Shown here: piece by piece, positions 51,252 to 60,735 of the stretch
Position numbering within the stretch: the first letter of the stretch is position 1
Layout: each line of letters starts with the position of its first letter
Assembly: GCA_014323545.1 (NCBI GenBank)
Contig: CP058647.1
Coordinates: 248,001-312,000 of the forward strand
Length of the DNA: 64,000 nucleotides
From: Hyphobacterium sp. CCMP332
GTDB taxonomy: Bacteria > Bacteroidota > Bacteroidia > Cytophagales > CCMP332
Direction: 5' to 3'
The notes under the pieces: model-generated
Told to the model about the DNA's origin: nothing
The model's input: only the letters and a program-made list of their open reading frames with translations
The model's database searches: none
Program-made: the position numbers and the translations under genes

Positions 51252-52682
51252 ATGAGTGAAGTTATTGGAGATATCGGTATTCTGGAGCAAGAAAACAAGG
51301 CTTGTGAAACCGTAAAAACCAGTATAGAAGAAGATAGAGGAAATTCGAGAAAGCTGTATATCGAAAGTTATGGTTGTCAAATGAATTTCTCTGACAGTGA
51401 GATCGTCACATCCATTCTCAAAAATGAAGGCTTTGATACCACCTCTAAATATGAGGAGGCCGACCTGATATTATTAAATACCTGTTCAATTCGCGACAAA
51501 GCAGAACAAACCGTAAGAAAACGCCTAAAACAATTCAACGCAATAAAACGCACCAAACCCCAAACTCAAATCGGTGTTTTGGGCTGCATGGCGGAGCGTT
51601 TGAAGAAAAATCTTCTTGAAGAAGAAAAAATTGTTGATATAGTAGCCGGCCCGGATGCCTACCGCGACCTCCCCAATCTGGTAAAACAGGTGGACGAAGG
51701 CGATAAAGCGGTTAATGTTTTTCTATCAAGAGAAGAAACCTATGCCGATATAAGCCCGGTTCGTTTAAATTCTAATGGAGTGACGGCTTTTGTCTCTATA
51801 ATGAGAGGTTGTGATAATATGTGCTCTTTCTGTGTAGTACCATTTACACGCGGACGTGAGAGAAGCCGCAATCCGGAGTCAATTTTGAAAGAAGCTCAGG
51901 AACTTATTGCAAATGGCTACAGGGAAGTCACATTGCTAGGTCAGAATGTGGATTCCTATAAATGGAAAAATGAGGAAAACAGCAAGATCGTCAATTTCGC
52001 TCAATTGCTCGAAAAAGTGGCTTTGCTAAACCCTGAATTGAGAATAAGATTTTCCACATCTCATCCCAAAGACATTACGGATGAAGTGCTTCACACCATG
52101 GCCAGATACGAAAATATTTGTAATTATATACACCTGCCTGCCCAAAGTGGAAACGACAGAATTCTGAAGCTCATGAACAGGACTTATAGCCGCGAATGGT
52201 ACCTGGAAAGAGTTAGAGCCATCAGAAATATTATCGGTGATGAGTGCGGAATAAGCTCCGATATGATCACCGGATTTTGTTCAGAAACAGAAGAGGAACA
52301 TCAGGATACGCTTTCACTTATGAAAGAAGTTAAATACGATTTCTCCTATATGTTTTTCTATTCCGAGCGTCCGGGCACTTTGGCCGCCAAAAAATACAGC
52401 GATAATATCTCTCTGGAGGATAAAAAAAGACGCTTAGCTGAGATCATCGCATTGCAAAGCCAGCTCAGTCTGGAAAGAAATAAAAAAGATCTCGGTAAGG
52501 TACACAAGGTGCTTGTAGAAGGCTTATCCAAAAAATCCGATAGGGATTTGTATGGAAGAAATTCAGCAAATAAAGTGGTAGTATTCCCCAAAGAGAATTA
52601 TAAAATCGGCCAATATGTTAATGTAATGGTAAATGATTGCAGTTCTGCGACACTTTTAGGGAAGGCAGTAGAAGCAGTATAA
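51252..52682 (+). CDS. miaB: tRNA-2-methylthio-N6-dimethylallyladenosine synthase
   Basis: Radical-SAM methylthiotransferase that adds the methylthio group to N6-isopentenyladenosine at tRNA position 37. The 476-residue protein has a 35-residue N-terminal lead, an MTTase domain with three cysteines (YGCQMN, NTCSIRD, LGCMAE), the radical-SAM motif CDNMCSFC in [19 protein letters not shown], and a C-terminal TRAM domain. Length is as usual. It opens a same-strand cluster (miaB, sigma-54 regulator, lptE, Lys/Glu-rich protein, secG) with 2-40 bp gaps, or overlaps, between genes. Confidence 0.96.
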
Positions 52683-52684
52683 AA

Positions 52685-53953
52685 ATGGAAGAATCAGAAT
52701 TACAATCGCTGAAACAGAGATTTGGGATCATAGGCAATTCACCTCAGCTCAACAATGCATTGCGAATTGCTGCCCAGGTGGCCCCTACCGATATGACCGT
52801 GCTCATCACAGGAGAAAGTGGTAGCGGAAAAGAATCATTTTCTAAAATTATTCACCATTTAAGCCATAGAAAACACGGACAATTTATTGCCATAAATTGT
52901 GGAGCTATTCCCGAAGGAACCATTGATTCAGAATTGTTTGGACATGAAAAAGGCTCATTTACAGGAGCACATGATGCCAGAAAAGGATATTTTGAAGTTA
53001 CAAGTGGAGGAACCATTTTTCTCGATGAAGTGGGTGAACTGCCTGTAGGTACGCAAGCCAGACTTTTGAGGGTCTTGGAAAACGGAGAATTTATTCGCGT
53101 AGGATCGTCGAAGGTTCAAAAAGCCGATGTAAGAGTGGTAGCCGCCACCAATGTGGATCTTTTTGAAGCCGTCAACAAAGGAAAATTTCGTGAAGATCTT
53201 TATTATCGTTTAAACACAGTACCCATTACCGTGCCCTCGCTTAGAAATCGCGGAGATGACATTGCTTTGCTGTTCAGGAAATTTGCCACGGACTTTGCTG
53301 ATAAGTACAAAGTAAAACCAATTCAATTAACCTCGCTGGCCAGAGAGGCCCTATTAAAATATCGCTTTCCGGGAAATATCCGACAACTCAAAAATATCGT
53401 GGAGCAGATATCCGTGCTGGAAGTCAGTCGTGATGTGCCCCCTGAAATATTGATGAAATACCTTCCCAGTTCAGAGAAATCCATGTTACCAGACTTATAC
53501 AAAGCACAGGGCAGCGACTCCAATCAGAGTTTTAAGGAAAGGGAAATACTCTACAATGTGCTTTTTGATATGAAAAAGGACATGAATGAATTAAAAAAGC
53601 TGGTTTTAAAATTGCTCAAAGAAGATCAAAGCAAATCCGCCATTCTCAACGATCACAATGAACTCTTTGATAACATCGTTACCCAGGTAGAAGATGATCG
53701 CCCTTCGTCCAATTATTATCTCGAACAAAAGGAGTCGGGATCTGGTAGTGGTAAAACTATAGACATCAGCAAAATAGAAGACATTGAACCCGAGCAGGAA
53801 CCTGAATCGCTTTCACTGGAAGAAAAAGAAAAAGAAATGATCATTAAGGCGCTTCAAAAAAATAATAACAAACGAAAATACGCCGCACAGGATCTGGGAA
53901 TCTCCGAACGCACTTTATACCGGAAAATCAAACAGTATGAACTTGAAAACTAA
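52685..53953 (+). CDS. Sigma-54-dependent transcriptional activator without receiver domain
   Basis: AAA+ enhancer-binding protein of 422 residues. The ATPase starts almost at once: Walker A GESGSGKE (43-50), sigma-54 contact loop GSFTGA (about 90), Walker B GGTIFLDEVGELP, then an unusually long charged linker (about 265-370), and a Fis-type HTH at the C-terminus (RKYAAQDLGISERTLYRKIK). No phosphoreceiver or sensor domain precedes it. ATG 52685, 2 bp after miaB, is preferred over an internal upstream frame. The only textbook -24/-12 promoter seen in the window is in front of groES, 3 kb away, a natural candidate target (inference). Confidence 0.92.
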   Translation: MEESELQSLKQRFGIIGNSPQLNNALRIAAQVAPTDMTVLITGESGSGKESFSKIIHHLSHRKHGQFIAINCGAIPEGTIDSELFGHEKGSFTGAHDARKGYFEVTSGGTIFLDEVGELPVGTQARLLRVLENGEFIRVGSSKVQKADVRVVAATNVDLFEAVNKGKFREDLYYRLNTVPITVPSLRNRGDDIALLFRKFATDFADKYKVKPIQLTSLAREALLKYRFPGNIRQLKNIVEQISVLEVSRDVPPEILMKYLPSSEKSMLPDLYKAQGSDSNQSFKEREILYNVLFDMKKDMNELKKLVLKLLKEDQSKSAILNDHNELFDNIVTQVEDDRPSSNYYLEQKESGSGSGKTIDISKIEDIEPEQEPESLSLEEKEKEMIIKALQKNNNKRKYAAQDLGISERTLYRKIKQYELEN

Positions 53954-54455
53954 ATTCACATACACATTAAATGTTGGTTTTCTTTTGCTTACTTTAAATG
54001 GTTGTGGCGTTTATTCATTTACTGGAACAAATATTTCACCGGATGTGAAAACCATTTCAGTAGCGACATTTTATAACGAATCCGGTAATGGCCCCGCCAG
54101 TATTTCCCAAACCTTTTCAGAGGGATTGCGTGATTTCTATCAGAGCAATACCAATCTGGAGCTGGTCAATTCAAATGGCGATCTTCAGATTGAGGGCCGG
54201 ATTTCCTATTATGCAGTGGAAAATGTAGCTCCAACCGGCGATGAGTTGGCAGCTCTGAACCGTTTGAGAATAAAAGTGCGTATCAATTATATTAATACTA
54301 AAGACGATAGCCAAAGTTTTGAGAATAAGCAGTTCACTTTTTTCGAAGATTTTGATCAGCAAACCACTTTGCAAAGTGTTGAAGATGAATTGATAGAAAA
54401 TATATCAGAACAAATATTTCTCGATATTTTTACGGAAACTGTCGCAAGCTGGTAG
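53937..54455 (+). CDS. lptE: LptE-family LPS-assembly lipoprotein
   Basis: Lipoprotein of 172 residues in the LptE group, which plugs the LptD outer-membrane channel for lipopolysaccharide. Signal and lipobox: LLLTLNGCGVYSF with Cys23. SPDVKTISVATFYNESGNG and QIEGRISYY are the typical core. The start lies within the last 17 bp of the sigma-54 activator gene, so translation is coupled. Family LptE proteins are 160-200 residues, in line with this one. lptD is not in the window. Confidence 0.87.
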   Translation: MNLKTKFTYTLNVGFLLLTLNGCGVYSFTGTNISPDVKTISVATFYNESGNGPASISQTFSEGLRDFYQSNTNLELVNSNGDLQIEGRISYYAVENVAPTGDELAALNRLRIKVRINYINTKDDSQSFENKQFTFFEDFDQQTTLQSVEDELIENISEQIFLDIFTETVASW

Positions 54456-54494: not shown

Positions 54495-55730
54495 TTGGAC
54501 AGCAAAGAATTATATAAACTCATTGAAAAACCTCAATCGATCAGCGAAAAGCAAATTGAGGCATTGGATAAAATTATTCAGGAAAATCCCTATTTTGCCA
54601 GCGCTCGTCTAATAAAGATTTTGGATCTAATAAGAAAAAAAGATCCAAAAGTTCATCAGGAAATCCGCAATTCATCTCTCTTTATTCACGATAAGAAAAG
54701 TATTTATGATGAAATACTGAAAATAGAAAAGCCTGTGGAAAGCGAAATCCCACTTGTCAATAAAGGTCAAGTAGGACTTGGAGAAAATAAAATTGAGAAA
54801 AACGATTTCACCGATGAAATCCTCGATGAGATTACCATCATTGGCCAAGGTGTCAAAAGCACGGTATTGGAAAGTTTCTCTACCAATGATATAGAAACTC
54901 CGGTAGAAAAATCAGCAGGAAATCCTACGAAAAAAAGCGAAAGCGAAAAAAAAGAAGATCCAAAGTCCAGTAAAGTCGAACCGTTAAAGGAAGAAGCACA
55001 GATCAAAGAAATAAAAAAGGAAGAATCACTTCCTGCCAAAGAAGATAAGAAAGAAGATGCAGCTCCGGCCAAAGCCTTAAAAAAAGAGGAGATTCCAGTC
55101 CCAAAAGAAATCAAAAAAGAAAATACTCCTACTGCCAAAAGAAGTTTGGCCGATGAAGTAATGGAGAACCTGGAGCAAATGAAAAAAGACAGGGCTGAGC
55201 GCTTGAAAAGAATGGAAGCCCTCGAGGAAAAAGAAAAAGAAAGAAAAAAGGCTTCATCTATCATTACAAAAACTAAAGACAAAAAGGCTCAAAAAAAGAA
55301 TAAAGAGGAAACACCTTCACAGGAGATTCAAAAACCAAATAGCAGCAAGTTAAAAAAAGATGCCAAAGCCAAAAGCAAGGCCACAGATAACAAAAGCAAA
55401 TCAAAAACGGCAAAAAAAAAAACTGAATCTGAGCCAAAAAAAGAAGAAAAAGAAAGCAAGCCTAAAAGCGACAAAAAAATAATTGAGTCTTTCATCAATA
55501 AAAGCCCAAGGATCAAGCCACCCAAAGAAAGCACGTCCAATACCGCAAATGAGGACTTATCTAAGGCGAGCACCGAGCTCCCAAGCAATTTAATCTCAGA
55601 AAACCTTGCTAATATATTTGAGAAGCAGGGAAAAATTTCAAAGGCGATAGCAATCTATAAGCAATTGATTTTGAAATATCCTGAGAAAAAGAGTTATTTT
55701 GCGCAAAAATTAGAAACCCTAGAAAAATAG
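54495..55730 (+). CDS. Lys/Glu-rich low-complexity protein with TPR-like C-terminus
   Basis: A 411-residue protein of unknown function. Residues about 1-130 are ordered (DSKELYKLIEKPQSISEKQI start), about 130-340 are highly charged with repeated KKE/PAKE words (KKEDAAPAKALKKEEIPV) and probably disordered, and the C-terminal 45 residues form a TPR-like pair of helices (LANIFEKQGKISKAIAIYKQ). The gene starts with TTG (54495) preceded by AAGGA; no ATG is available until far inside. It lies between lptE and secG, so a role at the cell envelope is plausible but unproven. Confidence 0.7.
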   Translation: MDSKELYKLIEKPQSISEKQIEALDKIIQENPYFASARLIKILDLIRKKDPKVHQEIRNSSLFIHDKKSIYDEILKIEKPVESEIPLVNKGQVGLGENKIEKNDFTDEILDEITIIGQGVKSTVLESFSTNDIETPVEKSAGNPTKKSESEKKEDPKSSKVEPLKEEAQIKEIKKEESLPAKEDKKEDAAPAKALKKEEIPVPKEIKKENTPTAKRSLADEVMENLEQMKKDRAERLKRMEALEEKEKERKKASSIITKTKDKKAQKKNKEETPSQEIQKPNSSKLKKDAKAKSKATDNKSKSKTAKKKTESEPKKEEKESKPKSDKKIIESFINKSPRIKPPKESTSNTANEDLSKASTELPSNLISENLANIFEKQGKISKAIAIYKQLILKYPEKKSYFAQKLETLEK

Positions 55731-55734
55731 TATT

Positions 55735-56142
55735 ATGGCGATCATAGTTGGCCTGGCGATATTTGTATCTGTCCTTCTTGTTCTTGTAGTTTTATCTCAA
55801 AGCTCCAAAGGTGGTATCTCTGCCAACTTTATAGGAGCAGGTGCAAGTCAAATGATGGGTGTGAAAAAGACATCCGATATTCTTGAAAAACTAACCTGGG
55901 GTTTGGCCATAGCACTTTTGCTTTTAACACTAGCTACCAATTTCATGGTGAATGATCCATCAGATCAGGTAGAAACCTCTAGTCCGAATGTGGAAAGAGC
56001 CAATGAATCTATTCTTCCTTCTTTGAGCCCAGCGCCATCCGGTGGCGATGGTTCATCCGATGATAACTTATTGCCTGCCGAAGATGAGGGCAATGGCAGT
56101 CAGGAAGAACAAAGCTCCGACGAAGACGATCTCGGTCTTTAA
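55735..56142 (+). CDS. secG: Preprotein translocase subunit SecG
   Basis: Small Sec-translocon subunit of 135 residues: two membrane helices (VGLAIFVSVLLVLVVLSQ, WGLAIALLLLTLATNFM) around the conserved loop KGGISANFIGAGASQMMG. Unlike short SecG proteins (about 75-110 residues), it has a 50-residue acidic Ser/Asp/Glu tail, as is common in Bacteroidota. It begins 4 bp after the upstream gene and ends the miaB-secG cluster; a convergent gene of unknown function follows directly. Confidence 0.92.
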   Translation: MAIIVGLAIFVSVLLVLVVLSQSSKGGISANFIGAGASQMMGVKKTSDILEKLTWGLAIALLLLTLATNFMVNDPSDQVETSSPNVERANESILPSLSPAPSGGDGSSDDNLLPAEDEGNGSQEEQSSDEDDLGL

Positions 56143-56868
56143 TCAGACAGATATTTTCTGAACCAATAAACGCTTTGAGATGGGCAGTAATGTCTCATCC
56201 AAAGGTGCATAGGCCTTGGAGTCTATTATAAATGTAGCCGGATTTGGCAATTTTTTATATTCCCTTATCAAACCCATTTTAATCGACTCAAAGGTATTGC
56301 TGATGCTTTTTTTAATCCTTTGTAGATAATTGGTATGGATACCCCTGAATTTTGAATCGGCGCTGTCAAAAATGCTAATCTGATATTCAAAGACATGCAC
56401 ATTTGGATCGTTTGCGATATTGACTAAAAAATAGCCTTCATTTTGATTGATCGGACAAAGACCAATGGGCTCTATAAGAATCTGACTTTCGATTTCATCG
56501 TAGAGCTCCTTCCCTTCCCTAATCTTATTGCCCAGTTTTGGCTCAGCAAACTCCACAATTTTTTTAAGCTCTTCCATGAATTCAGGATCCTCGAATTTGC
56601 TCTCGTACTGCAAAGCCAGACGTTTAAGATCAAGCGCGGAAATGTTTTTCGGAAAATTCCGAATGAGTGTTTCGTTGTTTTCTTTAAACTTCAAAAGATT
56701 TTTATAGTGAAAAATAATATCGGCAAAGGGCGGATACAGTCGTTTGCTTTTGAATTTCTCATCCACCGATTGCAGATAAGCCAGTAATTTATACTGCTTG
56801 AATTCCAAATCGACAAGTCCTTCGGTCAGCCAATCATCGGAAAGACTAATGTATTTTTGATCAGTCAT
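56143..56868 (-). CDS. Conserved protein of unknown function
   Basis: A 241-residue soluble protein with no signal or membrane segment. It opens MTDQKYISLSDDWLTEGLVD and is rich in charged helices (KFKSKRLYPPFADIIFHYKN), with a beta-rich end (YEYQISIFDSADSKFRGIHT-like). I do not recognise the family. An upstream in-frame start would add 16 residues, but ATG 56866-56868 gives a better N-terminus. It converges with secG (0-bp gap) and is divergent from groES, so the sigma-54 promoter region lies between them. Confidence 0.55.
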   Translation of the reverse strand: MTDQKYISLSDDWLTEGLVDLEFKQYKLLAYLQSVDEKFKSKRLYPPFADIIFHYKNLLKFKENNETLIRNFPKNISALDLKRLALQYESKFEDPEFMEELKKIVEFAEPKLGNKIREGKELYDEIESQILIEPIGLCPINQNEGYFLVNIANDPNVHVFEYQISIFDSADSKFRGIHTNYLQRIKKSISNTFESIKMGLIREYKKLPNPATFIIDSKAYAPLDETLLPISKRLLVQKISV

Positions 56869-56910
56869 AGCACGATAGGTTTTATTAAAGCTAATAAGAA
56901 ATAAAAATAG

Positions 56911-57030
56911 TGTCAATATTATTTGGGTTCAATTTTGTCATTCATGTCAGTTTTATGAAAAAATGTCAGACTGAAATTGCCAAAAAGTATGATTTATGAC
57001 ATAGAATTAAATTGGCACATAAAGTGCAAT
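56911..57030 (+). promoter_or_regulatory. Sigma-54 promoter of groES-groEL with upstream TGTCA words
   Basis: TGGCACATAAAGTGCAAT lies at 57013-57030: GG (57014-57015) and GC (57026-57027) are exactly 10 bp apart, and both flanks match the -24 TGGCAC and -12 TGCA consensus. A transcript would start near 57039, 27 bp before the groES ATG. Upstream, the word TGTCA occurs at 56911, 56936, 56945 and 56964, and inverted at 56997, as might be expected of activator sites. No CIRCE element is visible. Confidence 0.7.
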
Positions 57031-57065
57031 GCCTCTTTGAAAATTAACTAAAACATCTAATTCAT

Positions 57066-57350
57066 ATGTCAGATTTAAAATTTAAACCATCAGTGGGCAG
57101 GGTTCTGGTAGAACCGGCTCCGGCAGAAGAAAAAACCTCAGGTGGTATTATCATTCCCGATACAGCAAAAGAAAAACCTCAAAAAGGGAACGTCATCGCT
57201 GTAGGAACTGAGAAAAAAGATGAACCTATTCCATTTAAAGTAGGTGAAACTGTGCTTTACGGCAAATACGCTGGTACAGAAATTCAAATAGATGGCAGGG
57301 AGTATCTTTTAATGAGTGCGACTGACATCTACGGAAGTTTTGCAAAATAA
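57066..57350 (+). CDS. groES: Co-chaperonin GroES
   Basis: Ten-kDa co-chaperonin of 94 residues that caps GroEL. Family sequence is standard: LKFKPSVGRVLVEPAPAEEK, then the mobile-loop region TSGGIIIPDTAKEKP, VGETVLYGKYAG and EYLLMSATDIYG. It is followed by groEL after a 30-bp gap. A sigma-54-type promoter stands 27 bp upstream of the likely transcript start region. Confidence 0.97.
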   Translation: MSDLKFKPSVGRVLVEPAPAEEKTSGGIIIPDTAKEKPQKGNVIAVGTEKKDEPIPFKVGETVLYGKYAGTEIQIDGREYLLMSATDIYGSFAK

Positions 57351-59007
<1,657 letters not shown>

Positions 59008-59009
<2 letters not shown>

Positions 59010-59086
59010 TGAAGTGTGCCCAAGGGGCTCTACTTCATTACATTCGCCGAAGCAATAGCGCTGATTCAGCGCGGAAAGCCTGGGCG
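59008..59086 (+). other. Tandem hairpins in the groEL 3' untranslated region
   Basis: First hairpin: AATGAAGT (59008-59015) pairs with ACTTCATT (59032-59039), enclosing GCCC/GGGC; it overlaps the groEL stop codon. Second: GCGCTG (59058-59063) pairs with CAGCGC (59067-59072), enclosed by CGCC/GGCG. Neither has a T-run, so they may stabilise the mRNA rather than end it. Confidence 0.5.
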
Positions 59087-59108
59087 ATAACGACTAAACT
59101 TTACAAAG

Positions 59109-59143
59109 CCGTTATGAAACAATATTCATAGCGGTTTTTTTTT
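59109..59143 (+). terminator. Intrinsic terminator of groESL
   Basis: Ten-bp stem CCGTTATGAA (59109-59118) with TTCATAGCGG (59125-59134), one G-T pair, then nine T residues (59135-59143). Confidence 0.9.
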
Positions 59144-59219
59144 GTGCCGATTTTGTTTTTATAAAAAATCTTGCCCTTATTGAAGTTGAAATAGTGGAAT
59201 AAAAGTATAATTCTATTCA

Positions 59220-60386
59220 ATGATGGATCATTCGTGGATAAATAGGCCTTATAAATTGCTCAGCGCTTTAAACATAAAATTCTTTCTTATCCTGTTAATT
59301 GCAGTTCTTGCATTTGCATGTTCTTCAGACGATAATTCCACTTCACCCGCCAGTCCCAATACCGGTTTTTTCTCCGAATACAATCAAAGAAATTTTTCAA
59401 TGGGCTTTACTTCATGGCCATATGGTCCCGATCTTGAAGATGTAAGCTCAACCTATAGCTTTATTTCTCAAAATGCCGATATATATTGCGAACATATCGA
59501 TAGTAATATTCCTTGGTCCTCATGGATCAATGATTCTACTCTACCTGCTTCATTTGTCAATGATATTGCTTTCAAAAAATCAAATAAGATTGCCGGATTG
59601 GATTTTTTGCTTTCAGTGAGCATTTTAAATCTAGACCGGAGCGATCTTGCAAATGATTTTGATGGCAATACACCAAATTATTCCAAATTATGTGACTCAG
59701 CCATTATTGGTGCCTATACCAAACATCTGGATTATCTGATTACTGAATTTGAACCTACGTATTTGGTAATGTCCATTGAAGGAAACGAATTGCTAATTCA
59801 TTCTCCCGATAAGTGGGATGATTATAAAACGCTGATGCCGGCGGTTAGAACTGAAATAAAAAACCGTTTTCCTAATCTAAAAATAACCGAGTCCTTCACC
59901 CTCCATAATTTGTTTCAGCCCGATGTAGCCAATCCCGAAGACTATATCGATGAAGTCGCAACTTATGCCAATCAATTGGATTTTGTGGGCATAAGTTTTT
60001 ACCCCTTTTTCAAGGGCCTCTCCGACTCTGTCGGTTTTCAAACTGTTTTTGACTATTTGCATAGCAAAATTAATAAGCCCATTGTTTTTGCCGAAACGAC
60101 GAATATTGCGGAAAACCTAATTGTACCCGGATTAAGTTTAAATATTTCCGGAAATCCCGAGGAGCAGGATATTTATTTACAAGTGCTTCTTCACAATGCG
60201 CAGCAACATAATTATGAATTTGTAATCTGGTGGGCGCATCGCGATTTCGATGAGCTATGGGAAACTTTTTTACCCGATGTAAAAGACCTCGGCCAGATCT
60301 GGCGTGATACAGGGCTTCTGGATGAGGAAGGCAATGAACGCAAAGCCTATGATTCCTGGCAATCTGCATTTAAGATTTCCAAATAA
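59220..60386 (+). CDS. Lipoprotein with TIM-barrel glycosidase-like domain (GH53-like)
   Basis: Predicted outer-membrane lipoprotein of 388 residues: a signal with lipobox VLAFACSSD, then a barrel that resembles clan-A glycoside hydrolases such as arabinogalactan endo-galactanases (GH53). Candidate acid/base is Glu190 in SIEGNELLI and nucleophile Glu292 in VFAETTNIAE; WWAHRDFDELWE follows. Substrate is not clear and the family call is by motif only. It is a single gene after the groESL terminator. An imperfect hairpin and T-run at 60446-60476 probably end it. Confidence 0.65.
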   Translation: MMDHSWINRPYKLLSALNIKFFLILLIAVLAFACSSDDNSTSPASPNTGFFSEYNQRNFSMGFTSWPYGPDLEDVSSTYSFISQNADIYCEHIDSNIPWSSWINDSTLPASFVNDIAFKKSNKIAGLDFLLSVSILNLDRSDLANDFDGNTPNYSKLCDSAIIGAYTKHLDYLITEFEPTYLVMSIEGNELLIHSPDKWDDYKTLMPAVRTEIKNRFPNLKITESFTLHNLFQPDVANPEDYIDEVATYANQLDFVGISFYPFFKGLSDSVGFQTVFDYLHSKINKPIVFAETTNIAENLIVPGLSLNISGNPEEQDIYLQVLLHNAQQHNYEFVIWWAHRDFDELWETFLPDVKDLGQIWRDTGLLDEEGNERKAYDSWQSAFKISK

Positions 60387-60735
60387 ATAGTTTACAGCAT
60401 TAATCTGTTTTAAAATTGACATTTAGGAATGTTTTAAGATATGATCGCACCCTAGGCATAAGTGGGCGGTTTTTTTATAGCTATTTGAGATATCAATAAA
60501 ATATCTTGCTAATTAATTTCGACAACAAGTAAAAACCCGGTTGTGGTTTTAATCAGGAATGGATAAATCAAATACTTAGACATTTAAAATTTAGTATCAT
60601 AGTTCAAAACATGGCTATTTATGCTTAGCATTGGAAAATTATAAATAATTGAAATTCAAATAATTAATAATTGTTTTTATAAAAATTATCCATTAAAGAT
60701 GTCGACCTTTATAGAACCTCTAAATAAGGAAGACC
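60387..60735. other. AT-rich spacer, no gene seen
   Basis: No ORF of note on either strand. It holds a probable weak terminator (60446-60476) and an AGATAT/ATATCT inverted repeat near 60487-60506. The 60 bp before the next gene contain no convincing promoter, but AAGGAAG is just ahead of its ATG. Confidence 0.5.
60446..60476 (+). terminator. Weak intrinsic terminator after the glycosidase-like gene
   Basis: CG (60446-60447) and CCC (60450-60452) pair with GGG (60464-60466) and CG (60467-60468), with two bulged bases, followed by a seven-T run. Confidence 0.4.

Follow-up and report, generated by a model that had tools for sequence, protein, structure and literature searches.

A conserved sigma-54-type promoter and a helically phased array of TGNCA boxes in front of groESL in Hyphobacterium sp. 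CCMP332, with a candidate activator encoded nearby

By the standard of E. coli or Bacillus, sigma-54 control of groESL is unusual. Sigma-54 RNA polymerase is unable to open DNA unaided, and the Bradyrhizobium groESL3 operon is under the control of NifA. To our knowledge, the Bacteroidota apparently possess no dedicated heat-shock sigma factor, and heat-shock gene control in those members that lack HrcA is little described. For Flavobacterium psychrophilum, mapped transcript starts assign a -24/-12 motif to groES-groEL, lon, dnaK, grpE-dnaJ, htpG and clpB; the authors name three possible activators while leaving their assignment to clusters open in the main text (PMC9723704). A 2025 survey describes chaperone genes as enriched in the sigma-54 regulons predicted for Bacteroidota and Planctomycetota, and calls groES of B. 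thetaiotaomicron sigma-54-dependent (PMC12316311). In addition, an RpoN-dependent groESL3 operon is listed for Bradyrhizobium (PMC4842269). Since PMC9723704 and PMC12316311 report such cases, sigma-54 control of groESL is already known in this phylum, and the remark of an earlier note on this DNA that it would be unusual holds against the textbooks, not within the phylum.

The window analysed here is a 64-kb stretch (64,000 nucleotides) of the Hyphobacterium sp. CCMP332 genome, which consists of one contig of 3.33 Mb. It contains groES (57066..57350, + strand, 94 aa, PF00166), the only copy found in the genome, followed by groEL (57381..59009, +, 542 aa; PF00118, and TIGR02348 over its cut-off). 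Upstream, and on the same strand, are located a miaB-like gene (51252..52682; UPF0004, radical SAM and TRAM domains), a sigma-54 activator gene (52685..53953), lptE (53937..54455), a gene for a TPR-type protein (54495..55730, a weak Pfam match below the cut-off) and secG (55735..56142); the miaB-like gene and lptE are conserved neighbours of the activator gene. A gene of 241 aa without Pfam or NCBIfam match (56143..56868, - strand) is divergent to groES, leaving a gap of 197 bp (56869-57065) that houses both the promoter and the box array described below.

The sigma-54 -24/-12 consensus is YTGGCAC-N5-TTGCW. The sequence TTGGCACATAAAGTGCA (57012..57028, +), composed of TTGGCAC, ATAAAG and TGCA, ends 37 nt 5' of groES and agrees with this consensus at 11 of the 12 scored positions (letters read include T57012, G57014, G57015, G57026, C57027 and A57028). 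GG (57014-57015) and GC (57026-57027) are exactly 10 bp apart, the spacing prescribed in our test, and the ATG of groES is at 57066, just as the earlier note had described. With C57027 taken as -12, transcription is predicted to start 12 nt downstream at 57039 (+), giving a leader of 27 nt. The genome encodes RpoN (PF04552, E 1.1e-56). The motif alone is not rare in the window, where TGGCACN5TTGCW with up to two mismatches has 36 matches against 29.8 expected, so that its place and its conservation carry the weight. In the whole 3.33-Mb genome TGGCAYN6TGCW, the strict form, occurs 30 times, compared with 2 for the reversed-pattern control; 25 of the 30 lie within open reading frames of more than 100 codons on either strand and five outside, including those in front of groES and lon. 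The N5-spaced form, scanned for comparison of spacing only, has 18 matches in the genome.

The earlier note proposed a comparison with related genomes, and the motif is indeed kept there. Of 70 upstream regions of the order, 62 carry TGGCAY-N6-TG in the 220 nt that directly precede groES, compared with about 0.3 in shuffled sequences, and these span 21 of the 22 families; the exception, family f15, carries related sequences such as TTGGCACGATAGTAG. The 70 regions derive from the 74 of 79 order-sample genomes in which groES was found, leaving out those of G013, G059, G073 and G078 and a second copy in G019. When the spacer of TGGCAY-Nk-TG is varied from k=3 to 9, matches occur in 0, 7, 2, 62, 0, 0 and 8 of the 70 regions (0.32 expected at k=6); requiring TGCW at the end leaves 25 at k=6, one at k=9 and none at the other spacings. 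This plain spacing test is independent of an earlier promoter score that likewise accepted 62 of 70 (shuffle p<=0.05), the weights of which were set partly after the sequences had been seen. In the rest of the class, TGGCAY-N6-TG is found in 24 of 40 upstream regions (about 0.3 in shuffles). Many of those without a match show AG or CG in place of TG, which indicates that the C of the -12 element is often A or T in relatives, and the site of the window is, by its letters, among the more canonical copies. RpoN is present in 78 of the 79 genomes of the order sample. Three members of the order (G009, G047 and G056), two of them with 1.6-Mb genomes, have no groES match at E 0.001 despite having RpoN.

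These observations indicate that groES is almost certainly preceded by a working sigma-54 promoter, the sigma-54 dependence of groESL in Hyphobacterium sp. CCMP332 being read from sequence. That groESL is instead read from an ordinary housekeeping promoter, with the sigma-54 site as a chance match or relic, is very improbable: similar motifs are indeed about as frequent in the window as expected by chance, but the fixed spacing is conserved in 62 of 70 upstream regions, a scan with limited degeneracy detected neither a housekeeping promoter nor a CIRCE element before groES, and the start mapped in F. psychrophilum lies behind the same type of motif (PMC9723704). A chance match was rejected on the place of the site together with this conservation, and a housekeeping promoter as the source of groES transcripts was rejected on the limited scan. 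The same scan found a single weak TAnnTTTG-like box, overlapping the -24 element, and a search of 56000-60500 for Rfam elements gave no match up to E 1.

HrcA with CIRCE, a repressor system for groESL, appears to be absent here. No HrcA match was obtained in the genome, and the best CIRCE match before groES has 8 mismatches, which led us to reject CIRCE control and agrees with the earlier note. Among 198 genomes of a phylum sample, HrcA is present in 111, all of them outside the class (111 of 149, against 0 of 49 inside, namely this genome, nine of the order and 39 of the class). CIRCE (up to 2 mismatches) is found in 20 of 41 outgroup groES upstream regions, all from HrcA-bearing genomes, whereas the other 21 have no CIRCE (at least 6 mismatches) and none of them comes from the 111 HrcA genomes. 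TGGYAY-N6-TG is present in 17 of the 21 CIRCE-less regions and in 0 of the 20 CIRCE-bearing ones; its TGGTAC variant is confined to family f41, which contributes 13 of the 21, so that the contrast is one of few lineages and not of 41 independent events. The outgroup regions are not a random sample either, a second batch of 20 having been chosen for HrcA-lacking families (12 from f41). In f41, an HrcA-lacking family of another class (L386-L397 and L203), the sigma-54-like variant TTGGTAC/T-N5-TTGC precedes groES and TGNCA boxes are few. The result is a clean phylum-wide contrast, with the chaperonin run by a repressor in some lineages and by an activator in others, and we could not find a description of this mutual exclusion of CIRCE/HrcA and sigma-54 promoters in the open-access literature.

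Upstream of the promoter, six TGNCA boxes are located within 56911-57001 (all +). The nearest, TGACA (56997..57001), has an offset of -15, counted from the first T of the -24 element, and is followed outward by TGCCA (56978..56982, offset -34), two copies of TGTCA with a subsequent G (56964..56968, -48; 56945..56949, -67) and two further TGTCA copies (56936..56940, -76; 56911..56915, -101). Six boxes within 140 nt occur nowhere else in the 64 kb, and each of the other strict sigma-54 matches among the 30 of the genome has at most two. The earlier note, which correctly described the promoter, the nearby activator and the missing CIRCE, did not mention this array. The boxes could also serve the promoter of the divergent gene at 56143-56868 (-).

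The array is shared by relatives. Of 65 order sequences, 46 carry the hexamer CTGACA/TGTCAG on the upstream side of the -24 element (3.3 in shuffles; five of the 70 regions, with weak sites, were dropped from this test). TGNCA is counted 238 times in the 70 order regions against 49 in shuffles, about a fivefold excess, and 137 times in 40 class regions against 31; in 20 outgroup regions, three of which are sigma-54-like, a mild excess of 17 against 8.8 is seen as well. Its density before groES is 2.44 per 100 nt, compared with 0.43 in 360 other intergenic stretches. Relative to -24, the boxes cluster near -15, -25, -36, -46, -57, -67, -78, -88 and -98, and anchored on this element they show the strongest periodicity at 10.5 bp in the order (all 70 regions) and at 10.4 bp in the class set (40 of 41, with L190 dropped and one same-order record, L198, included). 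The phasing power is 52.8 for the order, with offsets randomised per family (22 families), and 54.2 for the class, with offsets randomised per sequence; 0 of 2000 random-offset trials reached the observed value in either case, although the class sequences are not independent since many come from one genus. Moreover, the phase modulo 10.5 is nearly the same in different sets: 6.1 in the order, 6.0 in the class, 6.0 in 25 named groES loci (sharing at least one genome with the class set) and 5.8 in 28 grpE upstream regions.

Such an array could instead influence DNA shape, its flexible steps and A-tracts being in phase, or be occupied by a different factor, for instance a nucleoid protein, the activator then acting from elsewhere or from solution. 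This explanation, which we regard as unlikely, draws on the AA.TT words, which are also phased with a period near 10.8, and on the nearest boxes, which at about 16 bp from -24 lie closer than usual activator sites. Upstream activator sites of sigma-54 promoters are usually found at -80 to -150. In addition, some boxes of Flavobacterium-like (f26) upstream regions fall in a terminator-like hairpin. On the other hand, when 16 gapped palindromes were compared, TG.CA reached powers of 52.8 and 54.2 (order and class) and AA.TT came second with 15.5 and 14.3, all others staying at or below 8.1; the weaker phasing of the A/T-rich words suggests that DNA curvature may contribute. CA.TG, which has the same dinucleotide steps as TG.CA, shows no enrichment and no phasing (28 sites, power 1.0), and the boxes of the order set have specific flanks, TG[TG]CAG or CTG[AC]CA. 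The hairpin, TGCCAGC...GCTGGCATTTTTT, lies between the preceding gene and groES in L179-L187 and similar f26 upstream regions, and being built of TGNCA words it may represent an overlap of terminator and array. Taken together, the boxes are likely to be binding sites of the lptE-linked activator. We could not find a published description of a phased TGNCA array or of its assignment to this activator in the open-access literature, which is weak evidence of absence; TGTCA does not occur in the main text of either PMC9723704 or PMC12316311.

Sigma-54-like sites precede other heat-shock genes of this genome as well, lon and grpE in addition to groES. The strict site of lon (G000:C1:965693-965708, L129) is located 77 nt before the start and has one box, at -63; this single box counts against the box model, since lon belongs to the F. 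psychrophilum regulon. The grpE gene (L337) has the sigma-54-like site TTGGCAAAAATATTGCA with boxes at -24 and -16. Correspondingly, grpE upstream regions, read in 30 of 76 genomes, show a box pair 8 bp apart at about -24/-16 with a best period of 9.1, not 10.5, in a set where L330 falls on dnaJ and several starts look over-extended. Of the other strict intergenic sites of the genome, L121 and L126 have no upstream box and L133 has one. In seven reduced genomes, a pattern scan yielded 6 to 16 matches each, compared with 1 to 11 for the reversed control (11 of 13 in G038), and is thus too unspecific to define a minimal regulon. Relatives with genomes of only 1.0-1.2 Mb exist in the same order.

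The activator gene (52685..53953, +) encodes, according to Pfam and ortholog alignment, a protein without N-terminal regulatory domain, composed of an AAA+ domain (residues 15-181), a lid (187-265), a linker and a Fis-type HTH (377-418). Its scores (229.8 bits for PF00158 and 47.9 bits for PF02954) are those of an enhancer-binding activator, and the receiver-less activator that the earlier note placed 3 kb away is confirmed at 3.1 kb, with PF00158 beginning at residue 15. A TTG at 52637 is an alternative upstream start. Among 125 aligned orthologs of 370-520 aa, GAFTGA or GSFTGA is present in 123, including the window copy. The recognition helix ISERTLYRK (HTH residues 406-414) is 95-100% identical, and the linker contains a conserved stretch at residues 285-304, where E285, R286, L303, K304 and D299 are kept at 91-95%. 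The window protein shares 63% identity with its Dyadobacter ortholog.

The activator gene is linked to groES in many relatives. Of 73 genomes, 38 have an ortholog on the contig that carries groES; in 30 the two are no more than 10 kb apart, 29 of these pairs being on the same strand, and in the remaining 43 the ortholog could not be placed within 10 kb, partly owing to fragmented contigs. At 80 named activator loci the fetched stretch includes groES in 26, with the usual order miaB, activator, lptE, secG, groES, groEL. Two loci labelled Caulobacteraceae and Rhizobium (L221 and L256) carry this Bacteroidota-typical miaB-activator-lptE cluster and are probably misbinned contigs. Full-length homologs of 36-42% identity also occur in Gemmatimonadota (L286-L289 and L291) and KSB1 (L284), with no groES within the fetched stretch. 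Homologs of similar score are likewise present in HrcA-bearing groups (for example 334.8 bits in G154), so that the protein alone is no marker of the system and its recruitment to groES probably came later than the activator itself.

Quite probably, groESL is driven by this lptE-linked activator. The genome encodes five strong PF00158 activators and another could therefore act at groES; moreover, the F. psychrophilum authors assign none of their three activators to a cluster in the main text (PMC9723704). That the promoter is real but driven by one of the four further activators is nonetheless improbable, given the linkage in 30 of 73 genomes and, in particular, nine relatives (G007, G014, G023, G027, G038, G042, G052, G066 and G070) in which a single strong PF00158 protein was found. 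In all nine this protein is the ortholog of the window gene, in the same place, and all nine keep TGGCAY-N6-TG before groES, although their assemblies are 87-99% complete and a second activator may have been missed in some. Two reduced genomes without a groES match, G009 and G056, have no activator and one divergent activator, respectively.

We propose, and consider likely as a whole, that a sigma-54 groESL promoter is driven by the lptE-linked activator bound to TGNCA boxes. In this mechanism, sigma-54 RNA polymerase would transcribe groESL from the -24/-12 promoter at 57012-57028. The activator would use its C-terminal Fis-type HTH to bind the boxes at 56911-57001, line up along a single helical face immediately behind the bound polymerase, and open the promoter through ATP hydrolysis. 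The boxes, the nearest of which are located about 40 bp before the start, just behind the polymerase, and which recur at each turn, suggest cooperative one-face assembly and not a looped distant enhancer. As the activator has no N-terminal sensor, a partner would have to hold it in check, perhaps via the conserved linker helix, and titration of GroEL or DnaK would be our favoured guess for this restraint; we infer both the binding to the boxes and the signal sensed. A broader version is doubtful at present: throughout the class, the HrcA/CIRCE repressor would have been replaced by a chaperone-restrained sensorless activator that forms a helically phased oligomer on TGNCA boxes and acts by contact, not looping, with box number and phase tuning each chaperone gene and RpoN kept for this purpose in the most reduced genomes. 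Our analysis provides a specific activator for testing, together with a DNA code made up of TGNCA boxes with a 10.5-bp phase and a fixed offset to -24, and reduced genomes with one sigma-54 and one activator would be natural minimal systems for its study.

Compared with known systems, HrcA/CIRCE controls the same target operon by a repressor and an inverted repeat; neither is present here, and an activator-dependent promoter takes their place. The SM4 regulon of F. psychrophilum shares the -24/-12 chaperone promoters, including that of groES-groEL, and there, too, a sigma-54 activator gene adjoins lptE and is four locus tags away from groES; this species belongs to a different order, and the main text of the report describes no upstream boxes (PMC9723704). 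The groESL3 operon of Bradyrhizobium has an RpoN promoter as in the window, but it is an extra copy listed with nitrogen-fixation genes (PMC4842269), whereas the operon described here holds the sole groES copy found. PspF, the enterobacterial phage-shock activator, likewise consists of an AAA+ domain without N-terminal sensor and a Fis-type HTH, and PspF chains in the PDB match residues 15-252 of the window activator. The latter reaches 269.7 bits with the PspF equivalog TIGR02974, below the cut-off of 443.55, and differs from PspF in its linker, which spans about 110 residues and includes a conserved helix; by its sequence it is PspF-like in architecture, not PspF.
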